This document shows positions 1,145 through 42,610 of a stretch of DNA of 44,881 nucleotides, in pieces (positions within the stretch are counted from its first letter, which is position 1; each line of letters starts with the position of its first letter). Source of the DNA: a virus; the IMG/VR virus record IMGVR_UViG_3300038441_000594, positions 1-44,881 of that record. One strand, 5' to 3'. Below the pieces are notes generated by a model. The model saw nothing but the letters and a program-made list of their open reading frames with translations, did no database searches and was not told where the DNA came from. Made by a program: the position numbers and the translations under genes.

Positions 1145-2874
1145 AAGCCCGCTATTACCAAACTGAAGCGGTGGATGCACTGTGGCAGTGGTTTTGGGAA
1201 CACCCCAATCCCGCAGAGAACCCGCTTATCGGTTTGCCGACCGGCACAGGCAAAAGCCTCGTCATTGCTCTAATGATTAAACGCATGATGGCGGAATTTC
1301 CGCGCATGCGAATCATGAAGCTGACGCACGTTAAAGAGCTAATCAAACAAAATGAAGAAAAGCTCTTGCAGATATGGCCCAATGCGCCGTTCGGCATTTA
1401 CTCCGCAGGCTTGGGGCGCAAGGAACTCCCGCCTCCTGACTTGCCGATTGCTGGATACCAGCGACAGGGCCGCGTTACCTATGCCGGCATCCAAAGCATT
1501 TACAAGCTAGCGGATGAGGTTGGCCACGTTGATATCATCGCCATTGACGAAGCGCATCTAATCAGCGATGAAGAGGCAACGCGCTACGCTATGTTTTTCG
1601 CGGGCCTGCGCAAGATAAATCCAATGTTGCGCTTTGTTGGATTGAGCGCGACTCTTTACCGTCTAGGCTTGGGTATGCTGACAGACGGCAAGCTGTTTAC
1701 GCATACCGCCTATGACCGTACCATGCGGGAAGACTTCAACAAGTTTATCCATGAGGGCTATCTATCCCCGCTGGTTCCGCGTTGCACTAAATATAAAATA
1801 AGCGACGAAGGTATTGGCATCACTGGCGGGGAGTACAATTCAAAGCAACAACAAATTGCAGTCAACAAGCGTGAGATTACTTACGCCGCGCTCAGCGAAA
1901 CCATGCGACAAGCCGGCGACAGAAAGCGCTGGCTTGTTTTCACAACCGGCATTGAGCATACAGACGACGTTGCTGACATGCTTGAGCGTGAGTTCGGCGT
2001 AAGCTGCACTCGCACACATAGCGGGCTTAGCCCCGCAGAGAATGACCGGAACATAGCCGACTTCAAGGCCGGCAAATACCGGGCAATGGTCAACGCCAAC
2101 AAGCTAACCACAGGGTTTGATTGCCCTGAAATTGACTTGATCGTTATCCTGCGCCTGACGCGCTCGCCGGGCCTATGGGTGCAGATGCTTGGACGCGGAA
2201 CCCGCCCTGTGTACGCGCCAGGGTTTGACCTTGAAGAGCTTGAACAACGCTTAGCGGCTATCCTCGCAAGCTGCAAACAAGACTGCCTTGTCTTGGACTT
2301 CGCGCAAAACAGCATGCGCATTGGCCCTATCAACGATCCAGTATTGCCAAAGATGAAAGGCAAAGGCGGGGGAACTGCGCCGATCAAAATTTGCGAGCAA
2401 TGTGATACGTTCAATCACGCCAGCGTGCTGCATTGCAGCTTCTGCGGTTTCGAGTTCCACCGCAGTGTTAAGTTCACGGCCCAGGCTGCGGCAACGCCGT
2501 TAATCGCTGGCAGCTTGAAAGAGCCGGAACCAGTACCCCAGGTTGAGCCCTTCGAAGTGGACGGCGTTACTTACGCCATTAACCGCAAGCCAGGCAGGCT
2601 GCCGACGCTGCGCGTTACCTATCAATGCGGGCTGCGCCAGTTCAGGGAGTGGCAGAGCTTCGAAGATGCCAACAGCTATGCCGCTAAGCTGTCGCGGGAG
2701 TGGTGGCGGAACCGTTACCCCTACCAGCCTGCCGACCATGAAGCAAAGCTCCCCCTGTGGACGCCTAACAGCGTGGAGCAAGCAAACCAGTACGCCAAGT
2801 TTCTGAAGATGCCTAAGCGCATCTTTGTAATTGTCAACCGCAAATACCCGCAGGTAACAAAGTATGAATTCTAA
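1141..2874 (+). CDS. Superfamily II DEAH-box helicase with zinc finger (RadD-like)
   Basis: 577-aa SF2 helicase. Seen in order are a Q-like motif at the N-terminus (YYQTEAV), Walker A GLPTGTGKS (residues 31-39), DEAH box IDEAH (about 135-139), motif III GLSAT (about 166), and motif VI QMLGRGTRP (about 347). A four-cysteine finger, CEQC...CSFC, follows at about 418-436. A SF2 core followed by a Zn finger recalls RadD/YejH and phage repair helicases. The ATG at 1141 overlaps the upstream stop and is preferred over an in-frame start at 1057 that lies deep in the nuclease gene. Probable roles are unwinding for recombination or replication; the substrate is not evident. Confidence 0.85.
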   Translation: MKARYYQTEAVDALWQWFWEHPNPAENPLIGLPTGTGKSLVIALMIKRMMAEFPRMRIMKLTHVKELIKQNEEKLLQIWPNAPFGIYSAGLGRKELPPPDLPIAGYQRQGRVTYAGIQSIYKLADEVGHVDIIAIDEAHLISDEEATRYAMFFAGLRKINPMLRFVGLSATLYRLGLGMLTDGKLFTHTAYDRTMREDFNKFIHEGYLSPLVPRCTKYKISDEGIGITGGEYNSKQQQIAVNKREITYAALSETMRQAGDRKRWLVFTTGIEHTDDVADMLEREFGVSCTRTHSGLSPAENDRNIADFKAGKYRAMVNANKLTTGFDCPEIDLIVILRLTRSPGLWVQMLGRGTRPVYAPGFDLEELEQRLAAILASCKQDCLVLDFAQNSMRIGPINDPVLPKMKGKGGGTAPIKICEQCDTFNHASVLHCSFCGFEFHRSVKFTAQAAATPLIAGSLKEPEPVPQVEPFEVDGVTYAINRKPGRLPTLRVTYQCGLRQFREWQSFEDANSYAAKLSREWWRNRYPYQPADHEAKLPLWTPNSVEQANQYAKFLKMPKRIFVIVNRKYPQVTKYEF

Positions 2875-3139
2875 AAATACCGTGTCGGATATTTTCCGCG
2901 AACAGGAAATTAAGCAGTTTGGCGCTAACCTGCAGGCAGAGCTAGGCAAGCTGCGCAAATTGTTTTTAACCCTGCAAGTCATCTTTGATGAACACAAACG
3001 CTGTACCGATTGTTGCCACTTCGACAAGGAAAAAGAAGTTTGCAAGCTAACGATCGGTCCGCAGTTCCCACAGGGCGTGCGGCCTCCTGCAGAAGTCATC
3101 GTTAAAGGCTGCGTCAACTGGGACGACATACCCTTCTGA
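2864..3139 (+). CDS. Small cysteine-containing protein, unknown
   Basis: 91-aa protein not assigned to a family. It overlaps the helicase by 11 bp, which suggests translational coupling and a linked role. The N-terminal half is helical and charged. The C-terminal half has CTDCCHF, a Cys-Lys-Leu and VKGCVNWDD, so four or five cysteines and a histidine could bind one metal ion. This is the last gene before the internal promoter at 3190. Confidence 0.7.
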   Translation: MNSKNTVSDIFREQEIKQFGANLQAELGKLRKLFLTLQVIFDEHKRCTDCCHFDKEKEVCKLTIGPQFPQGVRPPAEVIVKGCVNWDDIPF

Positions 3140-3189
3140 TTTACGAAACAGTCCGTAACGTAATTGCCTTTAACTATCAAACCGGCCGG

Positions 3190-3243
3190 AACGATAGGAA
3201 AGTTTTTGTTGCTTAGTTTGTTCGTTAGCGTAAGATACGCCCA
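3190..3243 (+). promoter_or_regulatory. Phage promoter copy 1 (AACGAT / TTGCTT / TAAGAT)
   Basis: AACGAT begins at 3190, the -35-like TTGCTT lies at 3209-3214 and the -10-like TAAGAT at 3231-3236, a 16-nt spacer. The same three blocks recur with identical spacing at 9873 and 13604. The intervening AAAGTTTTTGTT is also shared with copy 2. It drives the gene at 3269. Confidence 0.75.
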
Positions 3244-3268
3244 TCGACAACTTACCTGGTTAGCTCAA

Positions 3269-3463
3269 ATGATCCGCAAAGGCGACATTGTAACTTTCAA
3301 GCCGGAATGGCAGGACGATGGCGACGAAGGTTTTACTTTCCTGGCCTGCGATGATGAGGACGGCGCGCGCTTCATGGTAGGCATGCAGCTTGGGTTTAGC
3401 ATCAACCCGTCGCAGGTTGTCACTGTAGACATGATCGCCACAGTTAACGGTGTTGCCCTGTGA
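3269..3463 (+). CDS. Hypothetical 64-aa protein
   Basis: Small acidic protein, not recognised (begins MIRKGDIVTFKPEW). The MIRKGDIVTFKPE opening looks like the first strands of a small SH3-like or KOW-like barrel, but this is weak. An in-frame non-ATG start at 3164 exists, but it precedes the promoter at 3209-3236, so the ATG at 3269 is the sensible start. The stop overlaps the GTG of the methyltransferase gene, so the two are probably co-translated. Confidence 0.65.
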   Translation: MIRKGDIVTFKPEWQDDGDEGFTFLACDDEDGARFMVGMQLGFSINPSQVVTVDMIATVNGVAL

Positions 3464-4074
3464 ACATTTTGAATCTCTATGCGGGGCTGGGAGGCAATAG
3501 GAAACACTGGATCGGCGACATTACCGCCGTCGAATGGCAGCAGAGCATTGCCGACATTTATCAGGCTCAATATCCAAACGACACGCTTGTCATAGGCGAT
3601 GCGCACGCCTACTTGCAGGACAACTACCAGCGGTTTGACTTCATATGGTCCTCGCCTCCCTGCCAGACCCATAGCAAGATGGATCGCGCAAACTCGCGTA
3701 ACAAGCCGCGCTATGCCGATATGGGCCTATACGAAGAAATCATCTTTCTAAAGACCTACTTCAAGGGAAAATGGCTGGTAGAAAATGTAGTTCCTTACTA
3801 CCAGCCATTAATAGAGCCTTCCTTGAAGATCGGCCGGCATCTATTTTGGGCTAATTTCCCAATTGTTGCTTCAGACGTAGCGCGTCCTCGCAACTTCATA
3901 TCGAGCAAGGATCAAGCCCAAGCGGAAGAATTAAAAGCTTGGCTAGGGCTAAATTATACAGGCAATGTTTATTATAAAAACAATCATTGTCCTGCGCAGG
4001 TTTTGAGGAACTGCGTGCATCCTGAAATTGGCCGACAAATTATGAACTCCGCTATGCAGGAGGCTAAGCCGTGA
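3460..4074 (+). CDS. Compact C5-cytosine DNA methyltransferase-like protein
   Basis: 204-aa protein starting with GTG (overlap GTGA with the gene before). NLYAGLGGN at residues 5-13 matches motif I (SAM binding) of C5-methyltransferases. SSPPCQTHS near residue 66 is motif IV with the Pro-Cys nucleophile pair, and a later ENV (WLVENVVPY) fits motif VI. It is much shorter than typical Dcm-type enzymes (about 350-450 aa), so the target-recognition domain is small or absent. A likely role is protecting phage DNA from restriction. Modification of a hydroxymethylated or other base is possible but unsupported. Confidence 0.8.
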   Translation: MNILNLYAGLGGNRKHWIGDITAVEWQQSIADIYQAQYPNDTLVIGDAHAYLQDNYQRFDFIWSSPPCQTHSKMDRANSRNKPRYADMGLYEEIIFLKTYFKGKWLVENVVPYYQPLIEPSLKIGRHLFWANFPIVASDVARPRNFISSKDQAQAEELKAWLGLNYTGNVYYKNNHCPAQVLRNCVHPEIGRQIMNSAMQEAKP

Positions 4075-4250
4075 CTGACCTAGAAATAGCGCTCGATATC
4101 ATCCGCCGGCTTAAGGAAATTGCGGACGATTATTCTAACCAGCAGGAATGGGGCCGCGCGCCGGCAGAGTGGAACCAAGCGCGGGAAGACGCCGAAGAGT
4201 TGCTAGCCCGCTATCCGCAGCTTAACGTTGAAATTCCGAAGGACAACTAA
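4071..4250 (+). CDS. Small acidic protein (59 aa), GTG start
   Basis: A short frame starting with GTG at 4071, overlapping the upstream stop by 4 bp. It has an excellent Shine-Dalgarno site (AGGAGG) 7 nt before the start. The product is acidic and probably all helical; it begins VTDLEIALDIIRRL and ends EIPKDN. No family recognised. The next gene begins 3 bp after the stop, so it sits in a tight operon. Confidence 0.7.
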   Translation: MTDLEIALDIIRRLKEIADDYSNQQEWGRAPAEWNQAREDAEELLARYPQLNVEIPKDN

Positions 4251-4253
4251 GCC

Positions 4254-4460
4254 ATGGAAACACCTGAAGAAACCCTAGCGCGGTCGCAGGACTACCGCAC
4301 CCACCCAACCAAAACTTTCAAATGGGGCGCGCTTCGCACCAATGGGGGCACTTGGCAGTGGTACAAAACAAAGAGCGCCGCCAAGGAAAGAGCAAAGTCT
4401 TTTGCGCGTAGCGGTTGGGGCGCGTTGCTGGCCGAATATATGTCAGGTAACAAGCCATGA
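4254..4460 (+). CDS. Hypothetical basic 68-aa protein
   Basis: Small basic protein of unknown function. It has several aromatic residues (KWGALRTNGGTWQWY) and a KSAAKERAKSF helix, a composition that would suit nucleic-acid contact. The ATG at 4254 is 3 bp after the previous stop, and the last codons overlap the next gene by 4 bp (ATGA). Confidence 0.65.
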   Translation: METPEETLARSQDYRTHPTKTFKWGALRTNGGTWQWYKTKSAAKERAKSFARSGWGALLAEYMSGNKP

Positions 4461-5248
4461 ACTGCGTTCTGATTGATAAAACAAATTGGCGCTTCGTCAA
4501 GGCAGCGCCGACCGTCCAGCAGCTTATCTATTGGGCGGAATTGCTATTGCCGCAGACGGACTACATTGCGATGAATCATGAGCGCAAGCCGTTTAGTTCG
4601 CTGACGGCGGAAGAGCTAAAGGCGGTAATCCGTAACAGCGAGTCGCCGTTTAAAGGCTACACGACAAGCGAAACCGACTATGGCGAGCTAATCAACATGG
4701 CATGGGGGGTCGGACAAAACCTGCCGTGCGATGACACGCCGCTGCATACGCTGATAGACCGCGTTGGCCACAGGTTGGAGTGTGCAACGCCGGGCGCTCG
4801 CTATGTCGTCGGGCTCGGGCGCAGATACTTGCTAGCGCCGCGTCCGCCGAAGCTGCCGACCATGGCCAGGGTGAACATAGCCCCGCCTGCGCCCCCGCCT
4901 ATTCCGGTTCCGCCCATTCCGACCCGACCCCCTGTGACCATGCCGCCGCCCATTCCCGCAATCCCCCCGCCAATCCCGCGCGCACCGCCTCCGATCCCGG
5001 TAGCGCCTCCCCCTATCCCTGTACCGCCGCCGATCCCCCAGGCAGCGCGGCCAGCGTTCACGGCACCAAAGCCGGGCACTGCTGCGCGGGCGGTATGGGA
5101 TACAGCAGATGCGCTTTGGCCACAAATGAAGGGTGACGTTAAAGCCTTTCGCAAAGAAGTTTGCCGCTATGCAGCGTTAAGCGTTAACGAAAGCTCCGCC
5201 AACGTCTATGTTGGCAAGTGGCTTGCAGCGAAAGGAATAAAAGGGTAA
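4457..5248 (+). CDS. Proline-rich linker protein with C-terminal WxxxDAL domain
   Basis: 263 aa in three parts. Residues 1-135 are a globular unknown domain. Residues 136-200 are a low-complexity stretch of PPIP-type repeats. The last 55 residues are a small helical domain (VWDTADALWPQM...NESSANVYVGKWLAAKG). The last domain resembles the middle of the next gene product (IWAKCDAL...SENTASHQHGRWRKFHG), sharing W, D-A-L, the S-x-N/E-x-A turn and a final W. The function is not known; the shared domain could be a DNA-binding module. The start overlaps the preceding stop. Confidence 0.75.
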   Translation: MNCVLIDKTNWRFVKAAPTVQQLIYWAELLLPQTDYIAMNHERKPFSSLTAEELKAVIRNSESPFKGYTTSETDYGELINMAWGVGQNLPCDDTPLHTLIDRVGHRLECATPGARYVVGLGRRYLLAPRPPKLPTMARVNIAPPAPPPIPVPPIPTRPPVTMPPPIPAIPPPIPRAPPPIPVAPPPIPVPPPIPQAARPAFTAPKPGTAARAVWDTADALWPQMKGDVKAFRKEVCRYAALSVNESSANVYVGKWLAAKGIKG

Positions 5249-5284
5249 GGTCGGACCGCAATTCAATCAAACGGAGTAACAAAC

Positions 5285-5815
5285 ATGGCAACAAAGAAGA
5301 AAGTCAGCAAGCCCGAGCCCAAGCTCGGGGCCAGGGGCGGCAAGGTCAAGAACGGCGTGCTGTGCCCGAAGGAAGACACGGACGCCGGCAAGATTTGGGC
5401 CAAGTGCGATGCCCTGTCCAAGCTGGCAACCGGCGGCAGCAAAACGAAGAAACCGGCGCTCCGCGCTGATATCCTGCAGTTTGCTGTAACCAAGGGCATC
5501 AGCGAAAACACGGCCAGTCACCAGCATGGCCGCTGGCGCAAGTTCCACGGCTTCAGCAAGCCGAAGGCCCCGAGCAAGGCAAAGCCGAAAGCCAAGGCGG
5601 CTAAGAAGCCCCAGACGCCGGCAAAGAAGCCTGCCCCGGTCAAGGCAGCGGCTCCGAAGAAAGCGGCGCCTAAGCGCAATCCCGCTGCCAATCTGCAGGC
5701 CAACAAGCCGACGCCGAAGCCGAAGGCAAAGGCCCCGGCTAAGCCTGCGCCGGCTAAGAGCGTTTCCCAGGTAACGGAAGCTCCGGCGCCTGCGGCTGAA
5801 CCGCTGGCCGCATAA
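5285..5815 (+). CDS. Histone-H1-like Lys/Ala/Pro-rich protein
   Basis: 176 aa. The N-terminus is basic, residues 38-95 carry the helical module shared with the gene at 4457 (GKIWAKCDAL ... GRWRKFHG), and residues 96-176 are a Lys/Ala/Pro tail like bacterial H1-like proteins. Such tails bind DNA nonspecifically. A role in condensing or coating phage DNA is an inference. The SD site is in ACGGAGTAACAAAC before the ATG. A strong terminator follows at 5819, so this ends a transcription unit. Confidence 0.75.
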   Translation: MATKKKVSKPEPKLGARGGKVKNGVLCPKEDTDAGKIWAKCDALSKLATGGSKTKKPALRADILQFAVTKGISENTASHQHGRWRKFHGFSKPKAPSKAKPKAKAAKKPQTPAKKPAPVKAAAPKKAAPKRNPAANLQANKPTPKPKAKAPAKPAPAKSVSQVTEAPAPAAEPLAA

Positions 5816-33318: not shown

Positions 33319-35907
33319 TCACAATTCGATAGTCATGATTCCGCGCGTTTCATACACGCTAGGGCCTGCAATTTCAGCGTGAATTCGGCGCCCCAATGCA
33401 CTAATACTAGCAACAATTCCGTCAATCTTGTTAGCCGGTAGCTCTTTCCGGGGGTAAATGTTGTCTTTGGCGTCAATATGGCAGACGACGTTAGATGCCA
33501 TCCAGGCGAAAACCGGGTTCCCGTCGTGATGCCATCGCCCGCCCTTAACCAGTGCTTCAATCTCTTTCATCGGGGCGGAGAAATTGGCAACCGTGTTGCG
33601 GTATTCCACCATGGGAGCGCCCTTAGCCGCCATGCGCTGCGCAAACTGTGTCGCCTGCCAGGGATCAAACGGCACTTCGCGCACGTTGAAGCGCCGCAAA
33701 TCCTCTTCTAGGTCGGATTCGATTTGATCGAAGTCAACAACCGAGCCATGGTTTACGGTGATCCAGCCCGCATGCTGCCATCCTGTGTACTGTGAATTGC
33801 GAGAATCGCGCAAAGCATCTTCCGGCAAGTAGCACTTTAGGAACGCGTAGTAATGCACAAGCCCGTCAATGACGCGCTCAAATAAATAAACCTTGGCGTT
33901 TATATCCACTTTGGTAGCCAAGTCGAAAGCAATAACGCACTCTTCGCCCTCGAAATGCTCAAGCCGCAGCGAGCTATCGCCGCCGGCATCCCACTTGGGC
34001 ATGTCCATCCAAGGCGAATCACTGGACACCCAAACGTTAAGGTGCTTTGTCTTGAAATTGTTTTGTGCGCTAGGGGTTTCCTTCGCTTTCAAACAAGTTT
34101 GCGCGATAACGTCAGGCATAACCGAAATGCCCCAATTAGGGTTAGCCTTTCGGTGCGATGCGGGGTCCGTCCAATCGTCAGGCGGTTTTGTTCCGCTTAT
34201 GCCTTGTAGGCTTGGCTTTAACTTGCTTACGGGACAAGTACGCGAGTGCTGCGGCAATTGCTTTTTTAGTGTCTCCGAGAATACCCAATCCGCTATTACA
34301 TTGGCGGCATAGCAGTCCTCGCACATTTCCTGTGCTGTGATCGTGATCAACTCCAAGAACTTTAGAGGGCTGTTTGCATATTCCGCAACGGCCGCGTTGA
34401 CTTTTAAACAAAGCTTCGTAAGCGTCTTTGTCAATGCCGTAGAGTGCAGCAATTCGCTTGTGGGGATTTTTTGCTCTGTCTGCTTTTGCCCAAGCTGCGC
34501 GATATGCAAGGACGTGCGCCCGGTTTCGTTTTTCCCACCGCCTCCGGTTTTTATCTTGCTTTGCAGCATAGTCAGGGCTGCGCTTTCGCAAATATTTGTC
34601 ATAGCAAGATCGGCAGTAACCTCGCGCAAGTATTCCGCGCTCAGGGTGGTTTGTGCATGACATTCGCATTTTTCTTGCAGGCACTTTATAACCTCTCTAT
34701 TAGTAAATATTCCCTCATAAGGGTTTTCATCCAATGTATAAATAATGCCGAACTGGTTTTCGTCTTTGATGATCCCGCGAAGAATCTTAATCACATAGTT
34801 ACGCACTTCGTAACAAATGCCATCGCGGTTGCTGCCTGCAGTCGTGATAACCCAAATCATGGACCTGTGGCGTTTGCCTAGTGCAGTCTCTAGCACGTCG
34901 TAAACTTCGCGGGTCGGATGCGCGTGCAACTCGTCCACAATGCCGAAATGGATATTCAAGCCGTCAAGGTTGTCCGCTTCCGCCGACAGAGGTTTGAAGG
35001 CGCTAGCTGTGTCACGAATAAAGATGCTATGCGCGCCTACCTCAATACCGAGCGCATGCAACAAATCCGGCGTCTTCTTTGCCATGACGCGGGAGGAATC
35101 AAACACGATGCGCGCCTGTTCGCGGCTGGTTGCCGCGCTATAAACCTCCGCGCCTTCCTCGTCATCCGCCGCCAAGGCATAGAGCCCCAGGCCGGAACAC
35201 TCGAAGGACTTGCCGTTACCGCGCGGGACTTCGGTATAGGCGCGACGGAAGCGCCGCTTCCTGTGGTTATCCGACACCACCCATCCGAAACAGGTAATGA
35301 AGCGGAAGCACTGCCAGGGCTCCAAGTCCATCAACTCGCCGGCCTTCGGGCCTTTAATGTGCGGCAGGCTTTCCAAGAAATGGCAGATGCGCTCACCTTC
35401 AGAAAGGATAAAGGTATAGCCAAAGTCAGGGTCAAGCGTTTGTCTGGCCAGGTCGTTTATCTGACGCTGGCACGCGAGCTTTACAAATTCGCAAACGTCA
35501 ATTTCCCCGCGAACAACAGCATGCGCATAACCCATGCCGCGCTCAAAGTAATAACCCTCCGGCTTTTCGCTGTCCGGCAGGTTAAACGCGTCATCGCTAA
35601 ATTCTTCATCTAAGACGGGGCTAGCCCCGTCCATGCGGGACTGCAGTTCATCGGCTAAGCGAGCTTGCAGCGCAGTCAAGTCCCTGCTGCTGTCCCGCTG
35701 CTTTACTTTCTTCCGGGCTACTGCGCGACCTATCGCGCGCTTCGTCGCCGCCTTGGACGCCTTAACGGGCTTGGCTTTCGACTTTGCCGCCTTCTTTACC
35801 GGCGCTTTGGTTTTCTTTGCGGCAGACTTTTTGGCAGCGGGCTTAGCCTTCGCCTTCGTCTTGGTTGTCTTTGCCGAACCTTTGGAACCTGTTTTGTTTT
35901 TTGCCAT
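33319..35907 (-). CDS. terL: Terminase large subunit with in-frame insertion
   Basis: 862 aa. Residues 1-70 are Lys/Ala/Pro-rich, histone-like. The ATPase part has Walker A VPRGNGKS (227-234), Walker B FGIVDELHAH (Asp325-Glu326) and the coupling motif VITTAGSN. About residues 395-576 are an insertion that contains another gene in a different reading frame (34178-34684). The RuvC-like nuclease part follows, opening with DDWTDPASHRKANPNWG, then CVIAFDLATKVDINA and a final HIDAKDNIYPRKE region. Without the insertion the protein would be about 680 aa. Whether the insertion is translated, bypassed or removed is unknown. Confidence 0.85.
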   Translation of the reverse strand: MAKNKTGSKGSAKTTKTKAKAKPAAKKSAAKKTKAPVKKAAKSKAKPVKASKAATKRAIGRAVARKKVKQRDSSRDLTALQARLADELQSRMDGASPVLDEEFSDDAFNLPDSEKPEGYYFERGMGYAHAVVRGEIDVCEFVKLACQRQINDLARQTLDPDFGYTFILSEGERICHFLESLPHIKGPKAGELMDLEPWQCFRFITCFGWVVSDNHRKRRFRRAYTEVPRGNGKSFECSGLGLYALAADDEEGAEVYSAATSREQARIVFDSSRVMAKKTPDLLHALGIEVGAHSIFIRDTASAFKPLSAEADNLDGLNIHFGIVDELHAHPTREVYDVLETALGKRHRSMIWVITTAGSNRDGICYEVRNYVIKILRGIIKDENQFGIIYTLDENPYEGIFTNREVIKCLQEKCECHAQTTLSAEYLREVTADLAMTNICESAALTMLQSKIKTGGGGKNETGRTSLHIAQLGQKQTEQKIPTSELLHSTALTKTLTKLCLKVNAAVAEYANSPLKFLELITITAQEMCEDCYAANVIADWVFSETLKKQLPQHSRTCPVSKLKPSLQGISGTKPPDDWTDPASHRKANPNWGISVMPDVIAQTCLKAKETPSAQNNFKTKHLNVWVSSDSPWMDMPKWDAGGDSSLRLEHFEGEECVIAFDLATKVDINAKVYLFERVIDGLVHYYAFLKCYLPEDALRDSRNSQYTGWQHAGWITVNHGSVVDFDQIESDLEEDLRRFNVREVPFDPWQATQFAQRMAAKGAPMVEYRNTVANFSAPMKEIEALVKGGRWHHDGNPVFAWMASNVVCHIDAKDNIYPRKELPANKIDGIVASISALGRRIHAEIAGPSVYETRGIMTIEL
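34178..34684 (-). CDS. Endonuclease VII-type HNH endonuclease nested inside terL
   Basis: 168 aa starting with GTG at 34684, SD GAGAGG 7 nt upstream. N-terminus: a zinc-binding CTNHPERGILARGYCRSC. C-terminal half: CGICKQPSKVLGVDHDHSTG, then VRGLLCRQCNSGLGIL, with HNH residues and the Zn cysteines of the recombination endonuclease VII family often seen as homing enzymes. It is read in another frame than TerL; its TGA overlaps the codons where TerL homology resumes (DDWTDP). It is a likely mobile insertion. Confidence 0.85.
   Translation of the reverse strand: MPARKMRMSCTNHPERGILARGYCRSCYDKYLRKRSPDYAAKQDKNRRRWEKRNRAHVLAYRAAWAKADRAKNPHKRIAALYGIDKDAYEALFKSQRGRCGICKQPSKVLGVDHDHSTGNVRGLLCRQCNSGLGILGDTKKAIAAALAYLSRKQVKAKPTRHKRNKTA
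34180..34725 (-). mobile_element. 546-bp homing-endonuclease insertion in terL
   Basis: By alignment with the normal YTLDE-x-DDWTDP order of HK97-like terminases, the inserted DNA spans from after Glu394 to before Asp577, that is 182 codons. Only about 41 nt lie upstream of the HNH start, with a small hairpin CCCTTATGAGGG, and none downstream of its stop. The terL frame is stop-free across the insertion. There is no room for a group I intron core outside the HNH ORF. Confidence 0.65.
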
Positions 35908-36376
35908 TGCTCATCACCTGACTAACTTTGCTGCGATCCGCAGGGGTCATGCCGAATTTGCCAAGCCAGAAACCAAAACGCCTATCCGCGTCGGCAATGA
36001 TTCCAGTTTCTGGATACGCTCTCCACAGGTAGCCGTCTTTTGTGTACGCCTTGTAGCTAAATGGGCTGTAGTCGTCCGGGTTTTGTTTGCTGCGCTCGCG
36101 ATACAAAGCCATGCGTGCCCGAGCTTCAACCAGTTCGGCGTATGCCTTCACCATGCTTTCAAAGGCGGATATGTCCGCGTTGCTTGTGACGCGCAACGGC
36201 GAGACTTGTTGGCCAAGCGAAATCCAGCACTCACGCTCCGTCTCCGTCAGGTGACGCGGAGGTAGTGGCACGCCGGCAGTGAGTACCACGGCAACGGGCG
36301 CGGCCTTGGCGTCCCTGCAGGGCCTGTGTGTGCCTTTTATCTCTTTCGTCTTCGTTGGCAGCCTAGGGCGAGCCAT
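35843..36376 (-). CDS. terS: Terminase small subunit (P27 family)
   Basis: 177 aa. MARPRLPTKTKEIKGTHRP start and HLTETERECWISLGQQV match the P27-type small terminase. The middle helices (ISAFESMVKAYAELVEAR) form the oligomerisation core, and the C-terminus is basic/acidic mixed. It recognises phage DNA and delivers it to TerL. Overlaps terL by 65 bp. The ATG is 2 bp after the previous stop, with AGGA upstream. Confidence 0.85.
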   Translation of the reverse strand: MARPRLPTKTKEIKGTHRPCRDAKAAPVAVVLTAGVPLPPRHLTETERECWISLGQQVSPLRVTSNADISAFESMVKAYAELVEARARMALYRERSKQNPDDYSPFSYKAYTKDGYLWRAYPETGIIADADRRFGFWLGKFGMTPADRSKVSQVMSNGKKQNRFQRFGKDNQDEGEG

Positions 36377-36643: not shown

Positions 36644-37051
36644 TTATGTATCCCAACTAACATTGGGTCTATCCCTGTTTATACCCTTACTCTGTTCCCA
36701 GGTCTTCCTGTTGTGGTGGGGTTGGCATAGGCCCTGCAAATTAGAATCAACAAATTTAAGGTCCGGCCTCTGTTCCAGTGGGATGATATGGTCAACATGC
36801 TTTGCTGGCAGTACGCGCCATGGGTGGTCTTTCAAACACTTCTTACACTCGGGATTCCTAGCTAGATACGCCTTGGCAAAATCACGCCATACCCGATCAT
36901 AGCCACGCTTGTTTGAATTACCTCGCTTTACATCATAGTCCTTCTGTTGTTTCTTCCTCTCTGCATAGGGGTGCAGTGCGCAGCGGTACTGCCCTAGTGG
37001 TATTAGAGCGTTGCACCCTACATAGGTACACGGCTTAAGCACCTTGCCCAT
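36644..37051 (-). CDS. HNH endonuclease upstream of the terminase
   Basis: 135 aa. N-terminal zinc knuckle (CTYVGCN... CALH), then ECKKC, AKHVDHIIPLEQRPDL, SNLQGLCQPHHNRKT: complete HNH motif. HNH proteins next to terminase genes take part in DNA packaging of cos phages (for example HK97 gp74), so this is likely a packaging factor and not the homing type nested in terL. Confidence 0.85.
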   Translation of the reverse strand: MGKVLKPCTYVGCNALIPLGQYRCALHPYAERKKQQKDYDVKRGNSNKRGYDRVWRDFAKAYLARNPECKKCLKDHPWRVLPAKHVDHIIPLEQRPDLKFVDSNLQGLCQPHHNRKTWEQSKGINRDRPNVSWDT

Positions 37052-41326: not shown

Positions 41327-41356
41327 TTGACAGGCCCCAGGGCACAAGCGTACAAC
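41327..41356 (+). promoter_or_regulatory. Rightward promoter (TTGACA-18-TACAAC)
   Basis: Consensus -35 TTGACA at 41327-41332 and TACAAC at 41351-41356, 8 bp behind the second operator. It drives the gene at 41390 and the recombination/replication block. Confidence 0.6.
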
Positions 41357-41389
41357 GTGAATCCGCGACAACCAAAGGGATTAAACCGC

Positions 41390-42610
41390 ATGAGCAAGTC
41401 CAAGAAGCCCGCGCCTAAGAAGGTCGCGGCGAAGAAACCGGCCGCTAAGAAACCAGCGCCGAAGAAGCCGGCAATCAAGCCCAAGGCTAAGCCGGTAAAG
41501 AACAAAGCAACAAAGCCCGCAACCAAGCCGAAGAAAAAGGCTAAGAAGGTTGCCAAGACTCCCGAGCAAAAGCTTCTGGACCTGACGCCGAACGCAAACG
41601 CGATTGAGGCCCAGATGGCAGCAACCAAATCCACCACCCAAGAGGAAACCATGAGCAATATCCCGGCCCCGCCGAACGTGCTGAACCCCGCAATGAACGC
41701 GACGGTTGTCGTCGCCTTCCCGCCTGACGGCTGGACGCTACATCCCGAGTCCGCCAAGTTCGGCCAGAACTTTTACTACATGGGTACCGAGTGCATCAGC
41801 GAAACTGACCTGCGCGCACGCTGTGCCCCGCCGCTGCCGTCTACCGCTGTCGTCCTGCCGCCCGCACCGCCGATGCCTGCCGCCGCTGCGACGCCGGCTG
41901 AAGCTCCGAAGCGCAAGCGCCGTACCAAGGCAGAGATTGCCGCCGACGAAGCCGCTAAGGCTGCCCAGGCAAACGCCGTTGCTGGCGCTCCGCAGGCTGT
42001 CGTTCAGCCCGCCGCGCCGCCCGCCCCTGCGCCTGTCGCCCAGGCTGCACCGGCTCCGGTTGTCCTCGCTGGCGTGCCTGCCGTGGCCCCCGTCTTCGCC
42101 CCGCCGCAGTGGCAGCAGCCGGTTGCGGCCCCCACGCTCCCGCCGCCTGTGGCCGCTCCGGCGCCGTACAACCCCATCAACGAAGCCAACATGCAGGAGC
42201 TTAGCAAGTGGTATTCGCTGACCGTGCAGATGGCCGGCGTTAAGGAACAGGTGAAGCAGGAGCGCGAGCTTCGCGCTGATATCTTCAACCGCTTCTTCCC
42301 CGCCGCCGAAGAGAACACCAACAACCTGCCACTGCCCGGCGGCTGGGGCAACCTGCAGGCCAAGGTTCCTATCGAGCGCAAGGTCATTCAGGAAAAGATG
42401 GCCGAAGCCTTCGCGGAACTTGCGACGGTTGGCTACACGCCGGAGCAAATCACCGCCGCTGCCAATGCCCTGATCGGTTGGGAACCCAAGCTGAACCTTG
42501 AGGCGTACCGCCTTCTGCCGGGCAATGTCAAGGTTGTCGTGAACAAGTGCCTTGACATCAAGGTTGGCTCTGTGGGTCTGGAACTGCAGCTACCCCAGGC
42601 GCCGCAGTAA
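41390..42610 (+). CDS. DUF7173-like protein with histone-like N-terminus
   Basis: 406 aa. Residues 1-65 are Lys/Ala/Pro-rich (KKPAAKKPAPKKPAIK). A middle Pro/Ala linker (residues ~150-280) has a KRKRRTKAEIAADEAAKAA basic helix. The C-terminal ~130 residues (LSKWYSLTVQMAGVKEQVKQ..., LPGGWGNLQAKVPIERKV) resemble the phage DUF7173 family. A second in-frame ATG at 41651 has a better SD (AGAGG) and would give a 319-aa protein without the basic tail. First gene of the rightward block; probably DNA-associated. Confidence 0.75.
   Translation: MSKSKKPAPKKVAAKKPAAKKPAPKKPAIKPKAKPVKNKATKPATKPKKKAKKVAKTPEQKLLDLTPNANAIEAQMAATKSTTQEETMSNIPAPPNVLNPAMNATVVVAFPPDGWTLHPESAKFGQNFYYMGTECISETDLRARCAPPLPSTAVVLPPAPPMPAAAATPAEAPKRKRRTKAEIAADEAAKAAQANAVAGAPQAVVQPAAPPAPAPVAQAAPAPVVLAGVPAVAPVFAPPQWQQPVAAPTLPPPVAAPAPYNPINEANMQELSKWYSLTVQMAGVKEQVKQERELRADIFNRFFPAAEENTNNLPLPGGWGNLQAKVPIERKVIQEKMAEAFAELATVGYTPEQITAAANALIGWEPKLNLEAYRLLPGNVKVVVNKCLDIKVGSVGLELQLPQAPQ

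Follow-up and report, generated by a model that had tools for sequence, protein, structure and literature searches.

Hidden HNH genes within open host genes have been described in phages. The ShiLan element, or ShiLan domain, is a hidden HNH in a mycobacteriophage DNA methylase (Arsenault, Gosselin and Gogarten, 2025; PMC11855218). Its authors called the host methylase non-essential, argued that survival of the insert rests partly on this dispensable host gene, recorded several carriers with a patchy spread, and found no ribosome-binding site for the HNH (PMC11855218). The second published insertion of a hidden HNH-like ORF is Pacc40 gp60 (PMC11855218). As a check, the ShiLan record (L273) was inspected, and the hidden HNH was located at 4516-5103 within the methylase ORF at 2786-5668. 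It starts with GTG, and the host frame across it is free of stops; under the synonymous resampling described below, such openness has a probability of 1.9%.

The window analysed here is the whole stretch of 44,881 nucleotides of the IMG/VR virus record IMGVR_UViG_3300038441_000594. On its minus strand, the genes were arranged in the order packaging-type HNH, small terminase, terL, portal, head protease and major head protein, which is typical of HK97-like siphophages. The host gene and its neighbours were as follows.

33319..35907, minus strand: terL, large terminase subunit, 862 aa including the insert, ORF free of stops
34792..35319, minus strand: TerL ATPase domain, PF03354 (TerL_ATPase), residues 197-372, Pfam E=1.7e-28
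33379..34179, minus strand: TerL nuclease domain, PF20441 (TerL_nuclease), residues 577-843, Pfam E=3.2e-40
35843-36376, minus strand: small terminase gene of the head-gene cluster
36644-37051, minus strand: packaging-type HNH gene, phrog_144, PF01844, an ordinary second HNH upstream of the small terminase gene

Both the Walker A motif (EVPRGNGKS) and the Walker B motif (IVDE) were read in the translation of the ATPase domain. The record contained this one terL match and no second. At 121 columns that are near-invariant among 49 relatives, the TerL of the window keeps 117 residues and thus shows no sign of decay. The terminase is essential in phages of this type, and TerL functions as an oligomer. 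The N-terminus of TerL (35691-35907, minus strand) consists of about 72 Lys/Ala-rich residues that were disordered in the model, and its first 65 nt are shared with the end of the small terminase gene; translation may in truth begin further downstream. Elsewhere in the window, positions 41327-42610 (plus strand) encode a protein of 427 aa that matches DUF7173 (PF23791) in its last third and gave no match in its first two thirds.

Between the ATPase and nuclease domains, terL is interrupted by an insert that contains a second gene. The features of this insert were as follows.

34180..34722, minus strand: insert of 543 nt (181 codons) with the TerL frame open, from alignment with insert-free TerLs
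34178..34684, minus strand: hidden HNH gene, GTG start, 168 aa, PF02945 (Endonuclease_7), E=3e-21
34337..34348, minus strand: DHDH catalytic motif of the HNH domain, from alignments
34691..34695, minus strand: putative Shine-Dalgarno-like GAGGT (GAGGU in RNA), 6 nt before the HNH GTG and within the insert

The nesting of an endonuclease VII-type HNH gene between the two TerL domains had been noticed in a first-pass annotation, and Pfam placed all three domains in this way. The annotation gave an insert of about 546 bp and 182 codons. The multiple of three and the stop-free TerL frame were borne out, but the size is 3 nt less. It was also right that only a short remainder lies outside the HNH ORF, but this is 38 nt and not about 41 nt. 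The HNH ORF fills 505 of the 543 nt, and the 38 nt outside it are all upstream (34722-34685).

Alignment with insert-free terL genes, as the annotation had proposed, gave borders of 34722 and 34180. For this comparison, 178 loci with the nuclease half of terL were drawn from phage records, viral contigs and bacterial genomes, and the gap between ATPase and nuclease halves was measurable in the 176 in which the ATPase half was also present. The gap was 3 nt in 169 relatives, 6-9 nt in five and 39 nt in two; in the 169, exactly one residue separates the acidic pair of YTxD(D/E) from DDW. The window reads YTLDEN, 181 residues and DDWTD, so that the insert lies between TLDEN and DDWTD with an uncertainty of about one codon. 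None of the 176 relatives carried an insert of comparable size at the junction, and among the loci compared the insert was present in this record alone. Two relatives (L145:2203-2246 and L175:1836-1879) have about 12 extra residues at the same position of the TerL linker, which indicates that insertion is tolerated at this site. Direct repeats, AAAACC and CCT, were seen by eye at the junctions. Loss of the DNA between the AAAACC copies would leave terL out of frame, and the CCT repeat is too short for interpretation.

The HNH ORF also matched several PHROGs endonuclease VII families, and its profile matches in the PDB were T4 endonuclease VII and Hpy99I, with E~1e-11. In alignments, pairs of zinc cysteines (CxxC) flank DHDH at residues 100/103 and 126/129, and both pairs and DHDH are conserved in HNH relatives. 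The profile match, the zinc cysteines and the DHDH...N motif identify the product as endonuclease VII-type (PF02945). The first base of its start codon is the third of a TerL codon, and the TGA that ends it combines the last T of the insert with the first two bases (GA) of the GAC codon of TerL. With GAGGU ahead of the GTG, it is plausible that the HNH has a start of its own. An RNA hairpin masking this ribosome-binding site was weak and not significant. The GC3 of the HNH was 0.44, compared with 0.63 in the remainder of TerL, and this difference suggests a foreign origin of the HNH.

HNH proteins adjoining terminase genes act in packaging in HK97-like phages, and the nested HNH might accordingly be seen as a domesticated packaging cofactor co-expressed with TerL and not as a selfish element. 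However, the usual packaging-type HNH is already present at 36644-37051, and the nested HNH, a member of the endonuclease VII family, occurs in none of the relatives examined. We consider a role as packaging cofactor very improbable.

In our judgement, the locus is likely to be an out-of-frame, homing-type HNH insertion, in which TerL carries a mostly unstructured linker and translation of the HNH begins at a start of its own. A free-standing HNH gene from the endonuclease VII family, equipped with a ribosome-binding site, would have been inserted, in phase and without any splicing element, into the linker between ATPase and nuclease. Ribosomes starting at the ATG of terL would read through the insert and make a TerL with a mostly unstructured linker insert of 181 residues, and ribosomes starting at the internal GTG would make the HNH nuclease. 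The nuclease would then cut insert-free terL at or near the junction, and repair templated by the carrier copy would pass the insert on. The essential terL could tolerate this because the site is a linker between two domains and the insert brings no stop into the TerL frame. The sequence shows the anatomy of the locus, its borders, the two reading frames, the intact TerL domains and the lack of the insert in relatives, and we infer translation of both frames, cleavage, mobility and function of the enlarged TerL.

Alternatively, the transcript could lose the insert through self-splicing, by an element that has escaped recognition and has a ribozyme overlapping the coding sequence of the HNH. 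Terminase genes are known to host group I introns with endonuclease genes (Moonbeam, and LL-H as cited there; PMC4299906), and removal would spare an essential protein. However, the first-pass annotation had argued that a classical group I intron core does not fit, and we agree: covariance models of Rfam gave no group I or group II intron match, permissive thresholds included, and 38 nt outside the ORF leave no room for a catalytic core. The region of 701 nt folded no better than shuffled sequences (z=0.35), and an open TerL frame would be both needless and improbable if the insert were spliced. Self-splicing is therefore regarded as unlikely. An intein was also rejected. Intein ends need Cys, Ser or Thr, but the insert begins with Pro and is followed by Asp, and no intein domain was found.

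The out-of-frame insertion that we favour depends on an open TerL frame across the HNH gene. The TerL frame reads codon positions 2 and 3 of the HNH and position 1 of the next codon, and the other forward frame over the HNH contains 14 stops. When synonymous codons were redrawn with the HNH amino acids fixed, the TerL frame was open in 5.5% of trials with phage codon usage and in 3.1% with the HNH's own codon usage. When the order of the HNH codons was shuffled, it was open in 0.27%. Alternative forward frames were open in none of 92 other endonuclease VII-type HNH ORFs of at least 100 codons, so an open second frame is not a general property of such genes. HNH relatives of similar GC had a mean of 6.3 stops in the frame corresponding to that of TerL. 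With their second frames closed, a typical member of the family would have wrecked terL, and this argues for an element fitted to life within an open host frame.

Survivors of insertion into an essential gene are necessarily open, and thus openness alone is no proof of long-term selection. Under unselected change, a median of about 17 neutral synonymous changes would break the TerL frame. The first-pass annotation had suggested an overlapping gene whose host frame is retained by selection. The out-of-frame nesting with an open host frame agrees with this; however, with one carrier, selective retention and a recent lucky insertion cannot be separated.

The open frame also bears on translational bypass, which had been suggested on the model of T4 gene 60. 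In this case, ribosomes would skip the 543 nt as they skip 50 nt in T4 gene 60. The T4 case adjoins a homing endonuclease insertion, and another proposed case of bypass is the terminase of Streptomyces phage Hau3 (PMC5009743). However, inspection revealed no stop after a take-off codon and no identical codon pair that would rebuild TLDE-x-DDW, the junction of the family. The gap is more than ten times that of T4, and an open host frame makes skipping unnecessary. We regard bypass as extremely improbable and the suggestion as set aside.

Under an out-of-frame insertion read through by ribosomes, the insert would become part of TerL. AlphaFold2 predicted both TerL domains mostly with pLDDT >85 and the insert between them. 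In the TerL frame, the insert was mostly at pLDDT <50, with some helices at 54-64; this low confidence is partly expected, since none of the relatives aligned with TerL has the insert. The model of the HNH frame was folded from about residue 31 to 160, in blocks with pLDDT 74-98. These models bear on plausibility and not on function. The insert peptide in the TerL frame had no relatives and no Pfam or PHROGs match. Against the favoured reading, 181 extra residues could harm a protein that is essential and oligomeric.

A predicted unstructured insert could also be proteolysed, and TerL might then be effectively split, either by cleavage of the insert from the protein or by internal restart of the nuclease half, with halves cooperating like the split NrdA of phage Aeh1. 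There are known cases in which insertion of a homing endonuclease has divided a phage enzyme into halves that still function (PMC2988022). However, the ATPase half has no terminating stop, unlike known split genes, and no good ribosome-binding site was seen by eye before the first ATG of the nuclease half. A split TerL is also judged to be improbable.

The rarity surveys covered endonuclease VII-type HNH genes and terL, with up to 80 loci in each, and the records nearest to the window may be missing from them. A gapped DNA pattern, which requires the conserved flanking codons and a limited range of sizes, detected no terL insert of the same size in 84,980 species genomes or viral contigs, among the matches listed. 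No insert of similar size was found in phage records either, again among the matches listed. Across 94 places with an endonuclease VII-type HNH, the one in the window was the only one with same-strand nesting in an open host frame among the matches listed. Searching for the HNH motif near the terL junction gave 18 viral matches: 12 align to both halves of terL with nothing inserted between the two, one (L028) matches the HNH but not terL, and five match neither. An antisense open frame of 259 codons lies over the endonuclease VII gene of Gordonia phage OneUp (L189:2272-3049) and is probably a chance frame.

No other carrier was found among the relatives surveyed, and this weighs against the homing-type insertion that we prefer, in which homing would spread the insert. 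Since the record is metagenomic, the phage may also be defective or the assembly faulty. If the record is misassembled or the phage was inactivated recently, the arrangement would have no biological role, and this would account for a single uncultivated virus record with no second carrier found. However, a random join would hardly place the junction in phase and exactly at a domain boundary, keep the frame open and leave both the HNH and TerL intact, and ShiLan shows that such an arrangement does occur. We rate misassembly or inactivation as distinctly unlikely.

Compared with known systems, the homing-type insertion in terL is most like ShiLan gp65. Both have an in-phase insert with a stop-free host frame and no intron or intein found. 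In both, the HNH nearly fills the insert, its GTG begins on the last base of a host codon (the same offset), its stop is at the end of the insert, and the host-frame product is poorly structured. Unlike in ShiLan, the host here is a terminase and not a dispensable methylase, GAGGU precedes the start by 6 nt, and one carrier is known. The nuclease is of the Endonuclease_7 family (PF02945) here and of the HNH_3 family (PF13392) in ShiLan. BLASTP detected no similarity between the two, so the arrangement was probably reached independently. On sequence grounds, the terL insert probably works like the ShiLan element but is not its descendant. As in Pacc40 gp60, the hidden ORF of a nuclease-like DNA-binding protein lies within an open host frame, but the host gene and the nuclease differ. 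In Pacc40, a related free-standing gene lies beside uninvaded hosts, whereas none that close was found here.

Like mobE in Aeh1 nrdA and the insertion in T4 gene 39/60, the locus has a free-standing homing endonuclease gene embedded in the gene of an important phage enzyme (PMC2988022, PMC5009743). However, the host frame is continuous here, and nrdA and the T4 topoisomerase gene 39/60 are split into two coding regions. The group I introns with endonuclease genes in Moonbeam, and in LL-H as cited there, also have the terminase as homing target (PMC4299906), but no ribozyme was found here and the sequence outside the ORF is too short to hold one. No report of the same arrangement in a terminase gene was found in the open-access papers searched. 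Pipelines that annotate one long terL would miss such nested genes.

The first-pass annotation had considered a new kind of mobile insertion. The homing-type insertion agrees with our reading, but the kind was already described in 2025 with ShiLan and Pacc40 gp60 (PMC11855218), so that relative to the published methylase examples the differences here are the terminase host, the Endonuclease_7 family and a recognisable ribosome-binding site. Since a terminase is not dispensable, it becomes necessary to ask whether the finished protein tolerates such inserts or whether they are removed. Another nuclease family with the same arrangement and relative frame suggests repeated origin. We put forward tentatively, and short of calling it probable, that HNH insertions out of frame with their host genes form a recurrent class, with independent origins in different nuclease families, which is fitted to keep the host frame open and can live unspliced in an essential motor protein, one stretch of DNA being both a selfish nuclease and a tolerated linker. 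Together with ShiLan, the arrangement in terL offers a testable route to homing elements that are free of splicing.
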